A stretch of DNA of 64,000 bases from Iocasia fonsfrigidae (GTDB lineage: Bacteria > Bacillota > Halanaerobiia > Halanaerobiales > DTU029): NCBI RefSeq assembly GCF_017751145.1, contig NZ_CP046640.1:248001-312000 (forward strand). The letters are read 5' to 3'. Positions 3,935 through 32,700 of the stretch are shown piece by piece (the first letter of the stretch is position 1; every line of letters starts with the position of its first letter). A model generated the notes under the pieces. The model was not told where the DNA came from, searched no databases, and saw nothing but the letters and a program-made list of their open reading frames with translations. The position numbers were made by a program, and so were the translations under genes.

Positions 3935-4621
3935 ATGGATAATTTGAATGTTGATGATAACATAAAAGCTAGTAATGCAAAGGAATTTGCGTATAAAGTT
4001 ATTAAAAAGAATATTTTAAATCTTAATTTTTTACCAGGGATACAGATGGGAGAAAATGATTTATCAGAAGCATTGAATATAAGCAGGACCCCCATTAGAG
4101 ATGCAATTTCCATATTGTCTAATGAGAAATTAGTTGAAGTTTATCCTCAAAAGGGAACATATGTATCAAAAATAGCTATGCAGCGAGTTAAAGAAGCTGT
4201 TTTTATACGTACTACGATGGAAAGCGCAGCGGCAAAGATGGCTTGTGATAGTTTTACAGATAAGGATTTTTATATCCTAGATTCAAATTTGAACCAGCAG
4301 GAATTAGCTATTGAAAATAATGCATTATCAGATTATAATAAACTTGACAATCAAATGCATGAATACTTTTTTAAGGGTAATCGCTTTCAGTATACCTGGC
4401 AATTAATTCATAATTTTAGTGCTGATTATTATAGAATTCGCTATATAAAGTTAAAACTCAAATTACGGCTGAAAGAAACTATAAATGAGCATAAAGAAAT
4501 TATTCAAGCTATTAAAACTAGGGATGCAGTCTCTGCCTGTCAACAATTAGAGAAACATATAAAATATGTCTATGATGATGTGGAAGTAATCAATAAAAAG
4601 TATTCTAATTATTTTGTATAA
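3935..4621 (+). CDS. GntR-family regulator with FCD ligand domain
   Basis: This is a transcription factor likely to control the adjacent sugar-acid genes. The winged helix occupies about residues 10-75, with the family motif LSEALNISRTPIRDAISIL. The all-helical FCD domain follows from about 85 to 215, with candidate metal or ligand residues in DNQMHEYFF and the late INEHKEIIQAI. FCD members commonly sense uronates, gluconate or related acids (for example ExuR/UxuR types), which fits the uxuA and uxuB neighbours. The 228-residue length is typical. Palindromic sites on both sides of the gene are probable operators. Confidence 0.9.
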   Translation: MDNLNVDDNIKASNAKEFAYKVIKKNILNLNFLPGIQMGENDLSEALNISRTPIRDAISILSNEKLVEVYPQKGTYVSKIAMQRVKEAVFIRTTMESAAAKMACDSFTDKDFYILDSNLNQQELAIENNALSDYNKLDNQMHEYFFKGNRFQYTWQLIHNFSADYYRIRYIKLKLKLRLKETINEHKEIIQAIKTRDAVSACQQLEKHIKYVYDDVEVINKKYSNYFV

Positions 4622-10298: not shown

Positions 10299-11588
10299 TT
10301 GGAGAATTTAATAAAAAAAGTTCCAGAAAGCAGTCAATTTAGCTATGAAGAACAAAAATCTTATATTAAACAGCTAGTAGATCAGATTCCTGAAGATGCT
10401 AAACGGATATTAATTCTCCCCCCAGACATTACAAGGAAACATTCAGGTGCAGGTGTTTTAACAAGTATATTTTATGACTTTTTGCGGCAGATGGATATAG
10501 AGATAGATATAATGCCAGCATTAGGTACACATGACCCAATGGAAAACAGGAAATTAAAGGAAATGTTTGGCACTGGAATCCCTATGGAGGCCTTTAAAAC
10601 TCATGATTGGCGCAATGATACTATTAAAATAGGTGAAATTCCTGCTGAATATGTTAGTGAAGTAACAGAAGATAAGGTGAAACAGTCGATTCCCGTTAAA
10701 GTAAATGAATGCTTGATCAAGGGTGGCTATGATCTAATTATTTCTATTGGTCAGGTAGTACCTCATGAAGTAGTAGGTATGGCAAATTACAGTAAGAATG
10801 TTCTTGTTGGTGTTGGAGGATTTGAAATAATAAGTGTATCACATTTTGTAGGGGCAGTTGCTGGAGTAGAAAATGTCATGGGACGCGATCATTCTCCAGC
10901 TAGAAAATTATATGATTATGCTCAGGAACATTTTTTAAAAGACATGCCGTTATTATATATTTTGACAGTAAATTCTACCGACATTGATGAAGAATCAGAA
11001 CTGACCCGTATGTTGGGTATTTTTACTGGTTACGATAGATCGGTATTTGAAAGAGCAGTTGAATTTAGTAAAAAAGTAAATATTATAAAAGTAGAAAAAT
11101 CTTTAAATAAGGTTGTTGTATATCTTGATCCAGAAGAATTTAAGACTACCTGGATAGGATGTAAGGCTGTATACCGGACTCGTATGGCTATTGCTGATGG
11201 AGGTGAGTTAATAATAATTGCTCCAGGGCTACATAAATTTGGAGAAGATATAAATAATGATAGATTAATAAGGAAGTATGGTTATGTTGGAACTGAAAAG
11301 GTACTTGACCTGGTAAAGGAAAATTCAGATTTACAAGAAAATTTATCAGCAGCAGCCCATCTTATTCAGGGGTCTTCTGAGGGAAGATTTAAGATAAACT
11401 TTGCTTGTCAACATTTAAGAAAACAGGATATAGAAGGTGTTAACTTTAATTACTTGCCATTAGACAGGGCTCTTGAAAAATATAATATAAATGAACTTGA
11501 TAGTGGTTTAAATAATGTTGATGGTGAAGAGATATTTTATATAAATAACCCTGCAACTGGATTATGGGTTGCCAAAGATAAATTTTAA
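10299..11588 (+). CDS. LarA-family nickel-pincer racemase/epimerase, possibly gluconate 2-epimerase
   Basis: LarA-family enzymes use the nickel-pincer nucleotide (NPN) cofactor to invert the 2-hydroxyl of hydroxyacids. The family residues are in place: DITR 43-46, GTH with His78, His102, PHE with His156, Lys166 in NYSKNVLVG (the NPN-linked lysine in lactate racemase) and His182. The 429 residues equal the usual length. The start is TTG 10299 behind AAAGGAGAA. Some members of this superfamily are known to interconvert D-gluconate and D-mannonate; next to uxuA and uxuB that is the most economical activity, feeding gluconate into the UxuA step. The cofactor genes larB, larC and larE are not in the window. 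Lactate racemase is less likely here. Family sure, substrate inferred. Confidence 0.8.
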   Translation: MENLIKKVPESSQFSYEEQKSYIKQLVDQIPEDAKRILILPPDITRKHSGAGVLTSIFYDFLRQMDIEIDIMPALGTHDPMENRKLKEMFGTGIPMEAFKTHDWRNDTIKIGEIPAEYVSEVTEDKVKQSIPVKVNECLIKGGYDLIISIGQVVPHEVVGMANYSKNVLVGVGGFEIISVSHFVGAVAGVENVMGRDHSPARKLYDYAQEHFLKDMPLLYILTVNSTDIDEESELTRMLGIFTGYDRSVFERAVEFSKKVNIIKVEKSLNKVVVYLDPEEFKTTWIGCKAVYRTRMAIADGGELIIIAPGLHKFGEDINNDRLIRKYGYVGTEKVLDLVKENSDLQENLSAAAHLIQGSSEGRFKINFACQHLRKQDIEGVNFNYLPLDRALEKYNINELDSGLNNVDGEEIFYINNPATGLWVAKDKF

Positions 11589-21367: not shown

Positions 21368-21697
21368 TTATACAGCTTTAGAGTTATTATTTTTTATTTT
21401 ATATATATCTTCTGTATTTTCTATTGTTAGCCTTCTTATAGTATCAAGTCTATTATTTGTATCACTAATCATTTCTTTTATCTCTATAATATCTTTATTG
21501 ATATCATTAAAAGCAGCTATAGTTAACCCTTTTAATTCTGCAACATCTTCTTTCATATTTTTTAATTCTGCAACATCTTCTTTTAATTGTCCAATGTCTT
21601 TTTCAACTTTTTTCGAAAAATTATAAAACCCATGTAGTAAAGCATCCATTTTTTCTTCTTGACTATTAGATTTTAAAACTTTCTTAATATCATCCAT
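21368..21697 (-). CDS. Small coiled-coil protein, function unknown
   Basis: A 109-residue acidic-basic protein with a long heptad pattern. It has an internal near-repeat (QLKEDVAELKN then MKEDVAELKGL, about residues 38-57), followed by further helix to about residue 100. There is no signal peptide or membrane segment. A strong site GGAGGGG lies nine bases before the ATG at 21697, which argues for a real gene. Such proteins occur as structural or phage-derived partners, but nothing here identifies a role. It lies just upstream of the tnpA relic on the same strand. Confidence 0.65.
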   Translation of the reverse strand: MDDIKKVLKSNSQEEKMDALLHGFYNFSKKVEKDIGQLKEDVAELKNMKEDVAELKGLTIAAFNDINKDIIEIKEMISDTNNRLDTIRRLTIENTEDIYKIKNNNSKAV

Positions 21698-21916
21698 AAT
21701 TAACCCCTCCTATTATATTTTATCACTATATTAATGAAAATTCCACATTTTAATTTGAAATTTACTACTCTAAAACAGAAAAGCCCTGGATTAAGTCCAA
21801 GAGTTTTAAGTATTTTAAAAGCTTCTTTTTTCTTATATACCACAAAGAAAACAATAAAATAAAATGAAATAATAATAAATAATACATACATAAACAAAAA
21901 TAAAACAACAAAAAAG

Positions 21917-21944
21917 TTGTACTATTCTTTTTTTTATGTATAAT
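21917..21944 (+). promoter_or_regulatory. Probable promoter of the decayed lct-like operon
   Basis: TTGTAC (21917-21922), a 16-bp spacer and TATAAT (21939-21944), 113 bp before the relic start codon. A near-palindrome around TTAAAAGATCTTTAA lies further downstream near 22000. The promoter seems to have outlived the operon it served. The rest of 21698-22056 is AT-rich; I see nothing else in it. Confidence 0.5.
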
Positions 21945-22056
21945 AACTATAAAGTAGTTTTTGAAGGGTGGTGAGCTGGCCTGTAAATCTATTTATATTA
22001 AAAGATCTTTAATAATTTTGTTAGATTAGTAAAATGATTTCAGAGGAGGATTGAAA

Positions 22057-22567
22057 ATGAAGGTTATAATCCCAATAAAACAGGTGCCTGAAACAAACAA
22101 TGTTAAAATGTTTCTTGATGCTCTGGCTGGGGTAGAGAGGAAACAGGCAGGGATAGTGATTACTTCTAATGGGGGTTATCCCCATTTATCAAGCGGTTAG
22201 TATGACAGCTGCTGAGGCCGTCTGTAAGGAAAATGAGGTCATTATTATGCTGGCAGAATGTTCTGATGGGCATGGTGGTAAGGGCTTTTATAATACCTTT
22301 GCCCGGGTTGAAAAAGTTGGAGGATATTTTATCCAGAGATAGGCATGAAACTATTCGGGATCAGTGAGAATCCCAGGTATTGGCCAGGATTTTAATGCAT
22401 CATACAGTAATTATAATAGTGACCTTGTTGAGGTTTTAATCAAGGATATGCATATGCAAAAAGCAGCTAATCTTGAGCAGGCCGTTATAATGGCAGGGAA
22501 TATTATTGGCAATCAACAGAGCAAAATAACGGTAATACCCGATGGGGTAGCAGTTATTGTCAGGTAA
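22057..22567 (+). pseudogene. Relic of a lactate-utilisation operon: EtfB start joined to LarA C-terminus
   Basis: A good site GAGGAGGA precedes ATG 22057, and the first 18 codons (MKVIIPIKQVPETNNVKM) read as the start of an electron-transfer flavoprotein beta subunit. The frame then passes directly into the C-terminal part of lactate racemase LarA: GIVITSNGGYP, then in another frame YQAVSMTAAEAVCKENEV and ECSDGHGGKGFYNTFARVE. A third stretch reads RDRHETIRDQ, a stop where Trp is expected, then ESQVLARIL, and a final frame reads DMHMQKAANLEQA to ITVIPDGVAVIV. So there are several frameshifts and a nonsense codon. In known lct operons etfB is first and the racemase last, so one deletion could have removed everything between. 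Confidence 0.85.
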
Positions 22568-28000: not shown

Positions 28001-29518
28001 ATGTCAGAATATATTTTAGAGTTAAAGGGTATCACTAAAGAATTTCCAGGGATAAAGGCACTCGATGATGTCCATTTTCAATTAAAATCTGGAGAGATTC
28101 ATGCCCTGATGGGTGAAAATGGTGCCGGAAAATCTACTTTTATTAAAATTATTACTGGTGTACACCAACCTGAACAGGGTGAAATCTATCTGAAGGGTAA
28201 AAAAGTTAGCATAAATAACCCGAACGATTCCAAGAAGTTAGGGATTGCAGCCATTTATCAGCATGCAACCAGTTATGCTGATTTAAGTGTGACAGAAAAT
28301 ATTTTTATTGGACATGAAAAAATAAAACAGAGAAGTAAAAGGTTATTATGGGATGAGATGCATGCTGAAGCGGAGAAATATTTGAATCAGTTAGGTGCAG
28401 ATTTTAGTCCTAAAACAGAGATGAAAGCACTTAGTGTAGCCCAACAGCAGATGGTGGAGATTGCCAAGGCTTTATCTACTGGTGCCAGGATAATTATTAT
28501 GGATGAACCAACTGCTTCTTTAACTAAAAGTGAAAGCGAGGAGTTATACCAGATTACCGAAAAATTGAAAGATGATGGTACTTCCATTATCTTTATATCC
28601 CATAGATTTGAGGATACATATAGACTGGCTGATAGGGTTACAGTACTCAGGGATTCCCGTTATATAGGAACCTGGAATGTGGCTGAGATCAGTAATGAAC
28701 AATTAATTCAGGCCATGGTAGGCCGTGAAATTAAACAGCTGTTCCCGGATAAAAAGGCTGATCTTGGACAGGAGGTATTAAAGATAGAAGGGCTGGGGAG
28801 GATGGGCTACTTTTCAGACATTTCTTTTACCTTACACCAGGGAGAGATCCTTGGGTTAACAGGATTGGTTGGTGCAGGCAGGTCTGAGCTGTGTCAGGCA
28901 ATCTTTGGAATTACACCTTATGAGCAGGGGAAAATTTATTTCCAGGGAGAAGAGATTAAGATTAAACACCCTCTAGATGCTATGGAACTGGGGATAGGTT
29001 ACCTGCCAGAAGATCGTCAGGAACAGGGATTAATACTGGAATGGGGTTTAGAAAAAAATATTTCCCTCTCTGCTCTAGATAAGGTATCTCATCAGGGGTG
29101 GATAGATAACAGTAAAGAGGTAGATATGGCTCAATTGTTGGCAGAAAAGCTTAATGTTAAGGCAAAGACTATTTATGACCTGGCGAATTCACTATCTGGT
29201 GGTAATCAGCAAAAGGTTGTAGTTGCTAAACTCCTGACTGCTGATTTAAAGGTGATTATTCTTGATGAGCCGACTAAAGGTGTTGATGTAGGGGCGAAAT
29301 CGGCAATTTTTGAAATCATGAGTGACCTTGCTGAACAGGGCTATGGGATTATAATGGTTTCCTCAGAGATGCCTGAGGTTCTCGGTATGAGTGATAGAAT
29401 TATTGTTATGCGGGAAGGGAGGATTACTGGCAGCTTTTCCAGGGAAGAGGCCGACCAGGAAACGATCCTTAAAGCGGCTATGAAAAAGAAGGTTTCCCTT
29501 AAGGCTAAAAATAAGTAA
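28001..29518 (+). CDS. Rhamnose-type ABC transporter, ATP-binding protein
   Basis: This double ATPase (RbsA type, 505 residues) powers sugar import. The first nucleotide domain has Walker A GENGAGKS (38-45), the degenerate signature LSVAQQQMVEIAKAL and Walker B IIIMDEPTAS. The second has the usual altered Walker A GLVGAGRSE, the signature LSGGNQQKVVVAKLL and VIILDEPTKGVD. It is followed by two permease genes and a binding protein, the arrangement known for rhamnose importers with RhaM beside them. The substrate call rests on that context. Confidence 0.92.
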   Translation: MSEYILELKGITKEFPGIKALDDVHFQLKSGEIHALMGENGAGKSTFIKIITGVHQPEQGEIYLKGKKVSINNPNDSKKLGIAAIYQHATSYADLSVTENIFIGHEKIKQRSKRLLWDEMHAEAEKYLNQLGADFSPKTEMKALSVAQQQMVEIAKALSTGARIIIMDEPTASLTKSESEELYQITEKLKDDGTSIIFISHRFEDTYRLADRVTVLRDSRYIGTWNVAEISNEQLIQAMVGREIKQLFPDKKADLGQEVLKIEGLGRMGYFSDISFTLHQGEILGLTGLVGAGRSELCQAIFGITPYEQGKIYFQGEEIKIKHPLDAMELGIGYLPEDRQEQGLILEWGLEKNISLSALDKVSHQGWIDNSKEVDMAQLLAEKLNVKAKTIYDLANSLSGGNQQKVVVAKLLTADLKVIILDEPTKGVDVGAKSAIFEIMSDLAEQGYGIIMVSSEMPEVLGMSDRIIVMREGRITGSFSREEADQETILKAAMKKKVSLKAKNK

Positions 29519-29545
29519 TATATTAATTTTAAGGTGGGATTTTAA

Positions 29546-30553
29546 ATGCTTGAAGGAAAATCTAAGGGTTTATTTAATAGTGAGAATATACAAAAGATTC
29601 GCGAACTGGGTTTAATAACTTTTATTATTATCATTGGATTTTTTGTACAGTTAAGGAATCCTAGTTTTTTAAGCCTGGAAAACATAAATGACTTAATCAA
29701 AAATACTGCTATTCTTTCCATTCTGGCAGCAGGAATGATGTTGGTAATAATTACAAGGGGTATTGATCTTTCTATTGGTGCAACACTGGCTTTATCTGGT
29801 ATGTTAACAGCTATGACTGTTAAGATTTACCCTGGATTACATCCTATTTTGGCAATTTTCTTGGGTATGTTAATAGGTCTTATTTGTGGGGTAATAATAG
29901 GGTTTTTTGTTGCCAGGACCTCGATTTTACCTATTATTGCGACCCTGGGTATGATGAATGTTTTTAGAGGAATAACCTTTTTGGTCAGTGGGGGTAGCTG
30001 GGTAAGTGCCTACCAAATGTCTGATGGATTTAAAAATATTGCAACAGGCTCAGTATTTGGTATTAATAACTTGATATTTGTTGCAATAATTATCTATATT
30101 CTCTTTTACTACTTTGTTAATTATACACGAACAGGTAGACAGGTTTATGCTGTTGGTAGTAATCCGAATTCAGCTAGAATAAGTGGGATTAACGTTAGTA
30201 AAATATTATGCTTAGTTTATATGATTATGGGTGCGCTGGCAGGTCTTTCTGGTGTTTTATGGGTATCCAAGTTTGCTTCAGCCCAGAGTAATACAGCAAT
30301 GGGCTATGAAATGACTGTTATTGCATCCTGTGTTGTTGGTGGGGTAAGTATTGCCGGTGGAAGGGGCAAGGTCTCTGGTCTCCTTTCAGGTGTTCTTCTA
30401 ATGGGGCTTTTAGATAATGCTCTACCATTAATTAATGTGTCACCTTTCTGGCAGGATGCAATTCAGGGAGCAATCATTCTTTTAGCAGTAGTTGTGAGTG
30501 CTTTAGTTAAAAGGAGTGTTGATAGGAAGAATCTTATGAGGAGGGTAATATAG
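29546..30553 (+). CDS. Rhamnose-type ABC transporter permease 1
   Basis: An RbsC-type permease, 335 residues with eight to ten helices. The family motif RGIDLSIGATLALSGMLTA (positions about 72-90) and the late cytoplasmic loop GYEMTVIASCVVGGVSIAGG (positions about 252-271), which contacts the ATPase, are clear. The start is ATG 29546 behind AAGGTGGG. It forms a heterodimer with the next gene product, since the transporter has two different permeases. Confidence 0.93.
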   Translation: MLEGKSKGLFNSENIQKIRELGLITFIIIIGFFVQLRNPSFLSLENINDLIKNTAILSILAAGMMLVIITRGIDLSIGATLALSGMLTAMTVKIYPGLHPILAIFLGMLIGLICGVIIGFFVARTSILPIIATLGMMNVFRGITFLVSGGSWVSAYQMSDGFKNIATGSVFGINNLIFVAIIIYILFYYFVNYTRTGRQVYAVGSNPNSARISGINVSKILCLVYMIMGALAGLSGVLWVSKFASAQSNTAMGYEMTVIASCVVGGVSIAGGRGKVSGLLSGVLLMGLLDNALPLINVSPFWQDAIQGAIILLAVVVSALVKRSVDRKNLMRRVI

Positions 30554-30554
30554 T

Positions 30555-31541
30555 ATGGAAAATTTAACATCATCAGTAGAAAAAAACATATCAATAGAAA
30601 GAGAATTTAGGACAAAAGATTTTTTCCTACAGTGGGAGTGGTTGCTCTTATTAATTTTTTTTCTGATACATATTATTAATTCACAACTATCTCCCTATTA
30701 CTTAAATACCTATACCCTATTAGATGCGACAATGACTTTTCTGGATAAGGCCTTTATTGCCCTACCAATGGCTTTGGTAATTATTTTTGGTGATATTGAT
30801 ATATCAGTTGCCTCAACAGTTGCTTTATCATCAGTGATAATGGCTGTTGCTTACAATGCAGGTTTACCAATGGTATTAGCAATTTTACTTTGTCTATTTA
30901 TTGGATTGCTCTGTGGTTTAATTAATGGTTTATTAATAGTTAAGTTTAAAGAATTATCAGCAGTTATTGTAACCCTTTCTACTATGACCTTATACCGCGG
31001 AATAGCCTATATTATCCTGGAAGACCAGGCTGCTGGGGAATTTCCAGATTGGTTTAATTTTCCTGGCTGGGGTTATATAAAAGGAATTCCATTTATTTTG
31101 ATCTTATTTGCTTTATTTGCGGTAATATTTTTATTACTTTTACATAAAACAACATTTGGACGTAAGGTTTATGCTATAGGAAATAATGAAGTGGCCAGCA
31201 AATATTCTGGTGTCAAAGTAGATAAGATTAAGGTGGCAGTCTTTACACTGGCAGGTCTGATGGCAGGAGTAACTGCCTTATTTCTGACTTCCAAAATGGG
31301 TAGTACCAGGCCTAATATAGCCTCTGGCTATGAATTAGATGTAATTGCTATGGTAGTCCTTGGGGGTGTAAGTACATCAGGTGGTAAGGGTAAAATAATT
31401 GGTGTTCTCTTAGCTATTTTTATAATTGGTTTTCTGCGCTATGGCTTAGGACTTGTTAATGTGCCAGATCAGGTAATTTTAATTATAGTTGGTCTATTAT
31501 TAATAGTATCTGTCATGCTTTCTAATTTGAATAAAAAGTGA
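30555..31541 (+). CDS. Rhamnose-type ABC transporter permease 2
   Basis: A second RbsC-type permease, 328 residues, related to but distinct from its neighbour. It has FGDIDISVASTVALSSVIMA (positions about 76-95) and GYELDVIAMVVLGGVSTSGG (positions about 256-275). It starts one base after the previous stop with AGGAGGG inside the upstream gene, so the two are translationally coupled. Five bases after its stop the second MITE-like element begins. Confidence 0.93.
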   Translation: MENLTSSVEKNISIEREFRTKDFFLQWEWLLLLIFFLIHIINSQLSPYYLNTYTLLDATMTFLDKAFIALPMALVIIFGDIDISVASTVALSSVIMAVAYNAGLPMVLAILLCLFIGLLCGLINGLLIVKFKELSAVIVTLSTMTLYRGIAYIILEDQAAGEFPDWFNFPGWGYIKGIPFILILFALFAVIFLLLLHKTTFGRKVYAIGNNEVASKYSGVKVDKIKVAVFTLAGLMAGVTALFLTSKMGSTRPNIASGYELDVIAMVVLGGVSTSGGKGKIIGVLLAIFIIGFLRYGLGLVNVPDQVILIIVGLLLIVSVMLSNLNKK

Positions 31542-31546
31542 TTTAA

Positions 31547-31621
31547 AGTGTGTGTTCAAAAAGGTATAAATAGGGGATATATAATCCCCGTCGTTATACT
31601 GATACTTTTCGAACAGACTCT
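31547..31621. mobile_element. MITE-like element, 75 bp form
   Basis: The same termini as the element at 27474-27597: the left arm AGTGTGTGTTCAAAAAGG and the right arm ending TTTTCGAACAGACTCT match nearly base for base. The middle is shortened by 49 bp to one hairpin (GGGGAT-N5-ATCCCC). Flanks are TAA at 31544-31546 and TAA at 31622-31624, a candidate 3-bp target duplication different from that of the other copy. It sits between permease and binding-protein genes of one operon. Confidence 0.75.
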
Positions 31622-31701
31622 TAAAGGGTTGGCTGTAATAAATTTTGTATGAAACAGTACTAGCTGTTTTATATATTTAAATAAAAAAGAGGGGGAGTAA
31701 G

Positions 31702-32700
31702 ATGAAGAAATTATTTATTTGTTTAGTGTTGGTGATGGCAGTTATACTGGCATCTGGTCTTGCAAGTGCTGAGGGTAGATATGCTGTAATTTTCAAGAGT
31801 GCTGGTAATCCCTTTGGGGAGAAACTCATGGATGGTTTTGAAAAGGCTGTTAAGGAATTTGGTGGAGAAGCTATTTTAAAAGCCCCTGCTGAACCAACGG
31901 CTGAAGCGCAGATCCAGATGATTGAACAATTGATAGCCCAACATGTAGATGCTATAGCTATCAGTGCTAATGACTATGATGCACTAGAACCAGCCCTTAA
32001 AAAGGCTATGAGGAGAGGTATTAAAGTAGTCTCTCTTGATTCTGCTGTTAACCCTGATAGCAGGGATGTGCATATTAATCAGGCAAACCCAGAACTAATT
32101 GGTCGTGTGGAAGTTCAGGCCATCTATGAAATGATAGGTGAAGAAGGTCAGATAGCAGTATTAAGTGCCACTTCTCAGGCCAGCAATCAGAATCTATGGA
32201 TTGAATGGATGAAAAAGGAACTTAAAAAGCCTAAATATAGTAATGTTGAACTTGTAAAAGTTGCTTATGGTGATGATTTAAGAGACAAGAGTGTTTCTGA
32301 AACAGAAGCCTTATTGAAGACATATCCCGAGCTAAAAGGTATAATTGCTCCTACAACAGTTGGTATTGCTGCAGCCGGTAAAGTTTTGACAGATAAAGGG
32401 CTCAAAGGTGAAGTTTATTTAACCGGACTTGGTCTACCTAGTGAAATGGCTGAATATATAAAAAATGGTGTTTGCCCATGGATGTATCTTTGGAATCCTA
32501 TTGATTTAGGATATTTAGGTGCTTATGCTGCCCATGCCCTGGTAACAGGAGATATCAATGGGGAAGTTGGAGATACATTTAATGCTGGTTTCCTTGGGGA
32601 AAAAGAAGTAATTCAAGCTGGTGAAGGTACAGAAATTATGCTTGGTGCTCCTTTTAAGTTTGATGTTGTTAATATTGATAAATGGAAGGAAGTTTATTAA
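31702..32700 (+). CDS. Rhamnose-type ABC transporter, sugar-binding protein
   Basis: An extracytoplasmic receptor of the ribose-binding superfamily, 332 residues. The signal peptide covers about residues 1-24 (VILASGLASAEG end). The two-lobed sugar-binding fold is seen in the N-terminal strand (GRYAVIFKSAGNPFGEKLMDGF, positions about 25-46), IEQLIAQHVDAIAISAND, and the hinge segments VYLTGLGLPSEMAEYI and LWNPIDLGYLGAYAAHAL. Of the family branches it looks most like the AI-2/rhamnose RhaS group. A weak AAACAG/CTGTTT hairpin precedes its site GAGGGGG, perhaps raising receptor levels. Confidence 0.9.
   Translation: MKKLFICLVLVMAVILASGLASAEGRYAVIFKSAGNPFGEKLMDGFEKAVKEFGGEAILKAPAEPTAEAQIQMIEQLIAQHVDAIAISANDYDALEPALKKAMRRGIKVVSLDSAVNPDSRDVHINQANPELIGRVEVQAIYEMIGEEGQIAVLSATSQASNQNLWIEWMKKELKKPKYSNVELVKVAYGDDLRDKSVSETEALLKTYPELKGIIAPTTVGIAAAGKVLTDKGLKGEVYLTGLGLPSEMAEYIKNGVCPWMYLWNPIDLGYLGAYAAHALVTGDINGEVGDTFNAGFLGEKEVIQAGEGTEIMLGAPFKFDVVNIDKWKEVY

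Follow-up and report, generated by a model that had tools for sequence, protein, structure and literature searches.

A probable scar of a collapsed lct operon in the genome of Iocasia fonsfrigidae NS-1

The lct operon of Acetobacterium woodii is regulated by LctA, and the structure of its LctD-EtfAB complex has been solved (PDB 7QH2). According to the accessible part of PMC13372834, the operon comprises lctBCDEF and LctA acts upstream of lctB, while the name lctF is used for the racemase gene in the accessible part of PMC8914356. In the lactate racemase LarA, residue K298 is catalytic, as stated in the available text of PMC7583248. Here we describe a remnant of a related operon in Iocasia fonsfrigidae NS-1, the genome of which is a single contig of 3,926,493 bases, sequenced on the PacBio RSII platform (PMC8652127, accessible text). 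The analyzed stretch of 64,000 nucleotides (C1:248001-312000) is referred to below as the window. The segment at 22057-22567 of the window is very probably the pseudogene scar of an lctBCD-larA operon collapsed by internal deletion. As a kind, it is an ordinary, well-explained pseudogene, with intact homologs in relatives and disabling lesions in the host. The scar is not mentioned in the accessible parts of the two Iocasia genome papers (PMC8652127, PMC9587714) or in the literature searched, and it may still have been published.

Anatomy of the remnant

The features of the locus are listed below by their window coordinates; LarA codons are numbered after the intact racemase of G003, a relative from the same family as the host.

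22044..22049, plus strand: ribosome binding site AGGAGG, read directly; the ATG at 22057 starts 7 bases further on
22057..22110, plus strand: codons 1-18 of a lactate-type EtfB (LctB), assigned by translation and similarity
22110..22111, plus strand: junction, the putative deletion point, at which EtfB codon 18 is fused in frame to approximately LarA codon 266
22111..22182, plus strand: LarA remnant, piece 1 (frame 0), extending to SNGGYP
22184..22315, plus strand: LarA remnant, piece 2 (frame 1), preceded by the loss of four conserved columns; no Lys at the K298 position
22317..22421, plus strand: LarA remnant, piece 3 (frame 2); conserved Trp (W358 of LarA) replaced by an in-frame TGA at 22365-22367
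22421..22567, plus strand: LarA remnant, piece 4 (frame 1), ending at the original stop codon
22609..23367, minus strand: intact gene of a DeoR-family regulator, beside rhamnose genes

The initial annotation had described 22057-22567 as the start of EtfB joined to a decayed LarA end, and both parts of this description proved correct. The first 18 codons (translation MKVIIPIKQVPETNNVKM) carry the N-terminal motif of lactate-type EtfB, I-P-I-K-Q-V-P-E-T-x-N-V-K-M. They are identical at 14/18 residues (78%, E 3.7e-7) to the host's own intact EtfB, encoded at another locus (L014), and at 15/18 to a lactate-type EtfB start; the runner-up among the 127,894 six-frame stretches of the window compared reached 7/18. 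The complete ETF domain (PF01012) is absent from the relic, and all six PF01012 matches of the genome lie elsewhere.

The remainder is matched in pieces by the LarA_C profile (PF21113; E 0.017, 4.6e-16 and 7.9e-11), and two of these pieces, with 59.6 and 42.6 bits, exceed the cut-off of 25 bits. The pieces fall in frames 0, 1, 2 and 1, in agreement with the three or more frame changes previously noted, and the proposed Trp-to-stop change was found as the TGA that occupies a position where relatives have Trp. The columns of K298 and W358 (numbering of PMC7583248, accessible text) were placed in the relic by the motifs Y-Q-x-V followed by Lys and T-x-P-D-x-W, respectively. The N-terminal LarA domain with the cofactor lysine (PF09861) has no match at the relic and four matches elsewhere in the genome. 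Of etfB, etfA, lctD and larA, only the ends of the operon are left at this locus. The fused frame terminates at 22198-22200, and its product, a peptide of at most 47 residues, is predicted to contain neither the EtfB nor the LarA active site.

The annotation had further proposed an intact promoter and ribosome binding site. The ribosome binding site stands. No plus-strand sigma-70 site was detected in 21701-22056, nor is there an operator-like palindrome, so that an intact promoter is not supported, and a promoter of another type may be present. Further upstream, between a glutaredoxin/thioredoxin-reductase gene and the relic, a 109-residue frame with an internal repeat occupies 21368-21697 (minus strand) and has no Pfam or NCBIfam match. 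An Rfam scan of the window returned no matches.

Intact operons in relatives and the origin of the junction

The relic sequence was used as a query against 61 genomes (the host and 60 relatives) and was matched in 45 of them. Stops inside a match were found in the host genome only, with none in the matches of the other 60 genomes. The best foreign match (63%) was to G003, the closest relative with a racemase of the relic's type, in which the operon lctA-etfB-etfA-lctD-larA is intact (L047). Intact runs of etfB, etfA, lctD and larA are present in G003 and in G004, G015, G018, G033, G034, G026 and G017, the latter genomes carrying a permease-like gene (named from reading and mutual similarity, without a family scan) ahead of etfB. 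In a LarA tree of 25 rows, the relic was placed as sister to G003 with support of 96/94; its terminal branch is long (0.68 versus 0.20). The EtfB part, of 18 codons, does not suffice for placement in a tree.

The gene order of G003 and the sister position of its LarA agree with the earlier proposal that one internal deletion explains the junction. The distance from EtfB codon 18 to LarA codon 266 is 4,300 bases in G003, which gives an estimate of ∼4.3 kb for the size of the putative deletion relative to that operon. According to the proposed mechanism, an intact lctBCD-larA operon, encoding EtfB, EtfA, lactate dehydrogenase and a nickel-pincer lactate racemase, would formerly have occupied the locus, and a single deletion would have brought EtfB codon 18 and the C-terminal part of LarA together. 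Smaller deletions and the nonsense change would have accompanied or followed this event.

A second damaged operon was found in G001 (L105), in which lctA, the operator, etfB, etfA and lctD are intact and larA is cut to ∼64 N-terminal residues after lctD (L105 12367-12690). Because larA is truncated here too, the racemase has been lost at least twice in the host's family, with EtfAB-LctD retained.

In all nine relatives examined, the palindrome TGGTC(A/T)GACCA precedes etfB or the permease-like gene; 10 of the 15 upstream stretches carry it without mismatch. Its position, together with the binding of LctA upstream of lctB described in the accessible part of PMC13372834, suggests that it serves as the operator of LctA. 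The best occurrence in the window stretch, as in two L014 stretches, matches 7/11 positions. A candidate degraded operator at -85 of the relic (7/11) was rejected as a chance occurrence, given that 271 of 300 shuffles of the window stretch reached at least 7. The exact 14-base form of the palindrome does not occur in the host genome, compared to at least one occurrence on the lct contig of each of five relatives.

The intact DeoR gene next to the relic has a single match in G003 at E 1e-20 (62%), located directly beside the intact lctA. The neighborhood is linked but not collinear: the DeoR gene is downstream and convergent in the host and upstream and divergent in G003, and thus at least one rearrangement is needed. 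The rhamnose genes adjoin the DeoR gene in the host and in G033, and lie on another contig in G003.

It is also conceivable, though improbable, that the EtfB start and the LarA end were captured separately by recombination and that a whole operon never existed here. An intact operon was not seen at exactly this locus; in addition, a blastn comparison of 21698-22056 with the lct upstream regions of relatives gave no convincing match, and no lctA remnant lies beside the relic. (The best upstream match, E 3e-6 at L055 6463-6566, is short and AT-rich, does not precede an lct gene at that locus, and was discarded as low complexity.) Against separate capture, the pieces correspond to the first and last structural genes of a single operon and are correctly ordered and oriented; the outer end of each, i.e., its own ribosome binding site or its own stop codon, is preserved; and the G003 ortholog of the neighboring DeoR gene adjoins an intact operon.

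A sequencing or assembly error is very unlikely. The genome was obtained with PacBio RSII, a platform liable to single-base indels, but the lesions include a junction on the kilobase scale, losses of several bases at once and a base substitution that creates a stop, and the genome contains no copy from which the segment could have been misassembled (nearest EtfB start 78%, nearest other LarA 34%). There is similarly little reason to regard the 47-codon frame as a functional small protein or leader under selection, since its good ribosome binding site and in-frame junction (a one-in-three chance) are set against a frameshifted tail with a stop, the lack of LarA catalytic residues, an upstream region without a sigma-70 site or lct operator, and the lack of any broken form among the other 60 genomes searched.

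The extent of decay was examined at near-invariant LarA columns, 13 of 60 of which are changed in the relic, compared to a range of 0-7 (of 60-64 columns) among 22 intact rows. Two of the 24 LarA loci were omitted from this comparison: L034 (G011), an open frame of 426 residues missed by the pattern, and L041 (G040), a 182-residue frame that reaches the end of the fetched DNA. Six of the 13 changes consist of column losses or the stop; substitutions account for the remaining seven, including that of the Lys column, and their number equals the top of the range of intact rows. On their own, the substitutions are no evidence of relaxed constraint in the relic. Counted by codon position, the differences over 121 codons were 27/13/63 between the relic and G003 and 25/16/68 between the intact pair G003 and G004. 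Because this pattern and the number of substitutions both lie within what intact genes display, most of the divergence dates from a time when the gene was still being selected for, and the collapse appears recent relative to the split of the genera.

Lactate genes retained by the host, and comparison with the sister strain SP3-1

The initial annotation had concluded that the host probably lost ETF-linked lactate oxidation at this locus. This would be too strong for the genome as a whole, which contains three ETF pairs. Two of them (L011 and L012) adjoin acyl-CoA-dehydrogenase-like genes, as judged from the starts of the reading frames; the third is part of an intact etfB-etfA-lctD set (L014, C1:3,643,374-3,646,605). 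The proteins of this set are 71-78% identical to those of G003, group with the lct operons of G001, G003 and G004 in a single clade (96/98), and have LctD and LctB of 7QH2 as their best matches among solved structures. With this set intact, ETF-linked 2-hydroxyacid oxidation has probably been retained by the host, and we infer that EtfAB-LctD oxidizes D-lactate or another 2-hydroxyacid.

The search for an intact lctBCDEF elsewhere in the genome recovered etfB-etfA-lctD. No intact racemase of the relic's type is present in the host genome, the nearest other LarA being 34% identical; PF02652 lactate permease has no matches in the host genome; and the best host match to LctA of G001 is 32% identical, compared to 66% in G003 and 76% in G004. 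A tblastn search for remnants of lctA or larA in the rest of the window and at L014 found nothing beyond paralogs and the relic. The GntR-type matches to LctA, at window 3956-4570 and at L014 (33%), were set aside as distant paralogs.

Two other LarA-family genes of the host were observed. One (L015 3936-7107, C1:3243935-3247106) shares ∼50% identity with lct LarA in its N-terminal part and is interrupted by a group II intron (Rfam RF02005, 155.7 bits; RF00029, 51.2 bits) that holds a reverse transcriptase/maturase frame (PF00078). The other, at window 10299-11588, is a distant member of the family near TRAP-transporter-like genes and passes NCBIfam NF052594 (nickel-dependent putative hexonate epimerase) with 617 bits against a cut-off of 500.

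At L014, etfB starts 28 bases after a glycerol-dehydrogenase-like gene, beyond which lie TRAP-transporter genes (assigned by reading and similarity). The cluster, at L014 6375-10738, may be a new 2-hydroxyacid cluster. A gene 68% identical to this dehydrogenase-like gene lies closely upstream of the G001 lct locus; at E 1e-30, neither G003 nor G004 yielded a match. Since the relic shares its DeoR neighbor with the operon of G003, and L014 shares its dehydrogenase gene with G001, the likeliest history is one in which an ancestor would have carried lct genes at two loci, the first adjoining the DeoR gene and the second the glycerol-dehydrogenase-like gene, followed by different losses. Iocasia would then have collapsed the DeoR-linked locus and retained the second without racemase, LctA or operator. 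Much more tentatively, Iocasia may have duplicated and then dismantled its lactate regulon, the scar being the original DeoR-linked copy and the surviving ETF-LctD having been rewired to the dehydrogenase/TRAP-transporter cluster for a new 2-hydroxyacid role.

According to the accessible text of PMC9587714, NS-1 makes lactate from glucose and strain SP3-1 makes none, and the authors suggested that the extra GntR regulators of SP3-1 are relevant to this absence. As given there, Table 5 pairs AZO93770 with QTL96707 (GntR, 228 residues) and the rhamnose permease AZO93795 with QTL96733, and rhaT (QTL96732) is listed as missing from SP3-1. A 228-residue frame at window 3935-4621 has the same length as QTL96707, and QTL96732 to QTL96735 (505, 335, 328 and 332 residues in the same source) fit the frames of window 28001-32700 in length and order. 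We note that rhaT would correspond to window 28001-29518, the locus seemingly being otherwise equal in gene number to that of SP3-1. Assuming that protein numbers run along the chromosome, 24 proteins of SP3-1 and 25 of NS-1 lie between these two pairs, or 24 in each without rhaT. An intact four-gene operon would add about four proteins; since the counts are equal, SP3-1 probably lacks an intact operon and, as far as the numbering in the published table indicates, probably has the scar too. Being probably common to both strains, the scar is unlikely to explain the difference in lactate production.

The remnant marks where a halophilic cellulose degrader lost racemase-coupled lactate use, and shows that the pathway can be stripped of racemase, repressor, operator and permease with its electron-transfer part retained. 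It predicts that NS-1 is unable to grow on L-lactate via this route, and it bears on the account of absent lactate given in the accessible part of the SP3-1 paper (PMC9587714).

Comparison with described and related lct operons

The operon of G003 (L047) resembles the relic in the families and order of its genes, in its sister LarA and in the adjacent DeoR ortholog; it differs in being intact, in having lctA and the operator, and in the DeoR gene lying on the opposite side. The locus of G001 (L105) is similar to the host in having lost the racemase and in the dehydrogenase gene adjacent to it, as at L014, whereas its damage is a truncation of larA and not a fusion. The likeness to lctBCDEF of A. 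woodii is seen in the surviving LctD and EtfB of the host, which have chains C and B of 7QH2 as their best matches. Unlike in A. woodii, the operon in NS-1 has lost its central part and what is left of the racemase gene is broken, with LctA and its operator missing from the entire genome.
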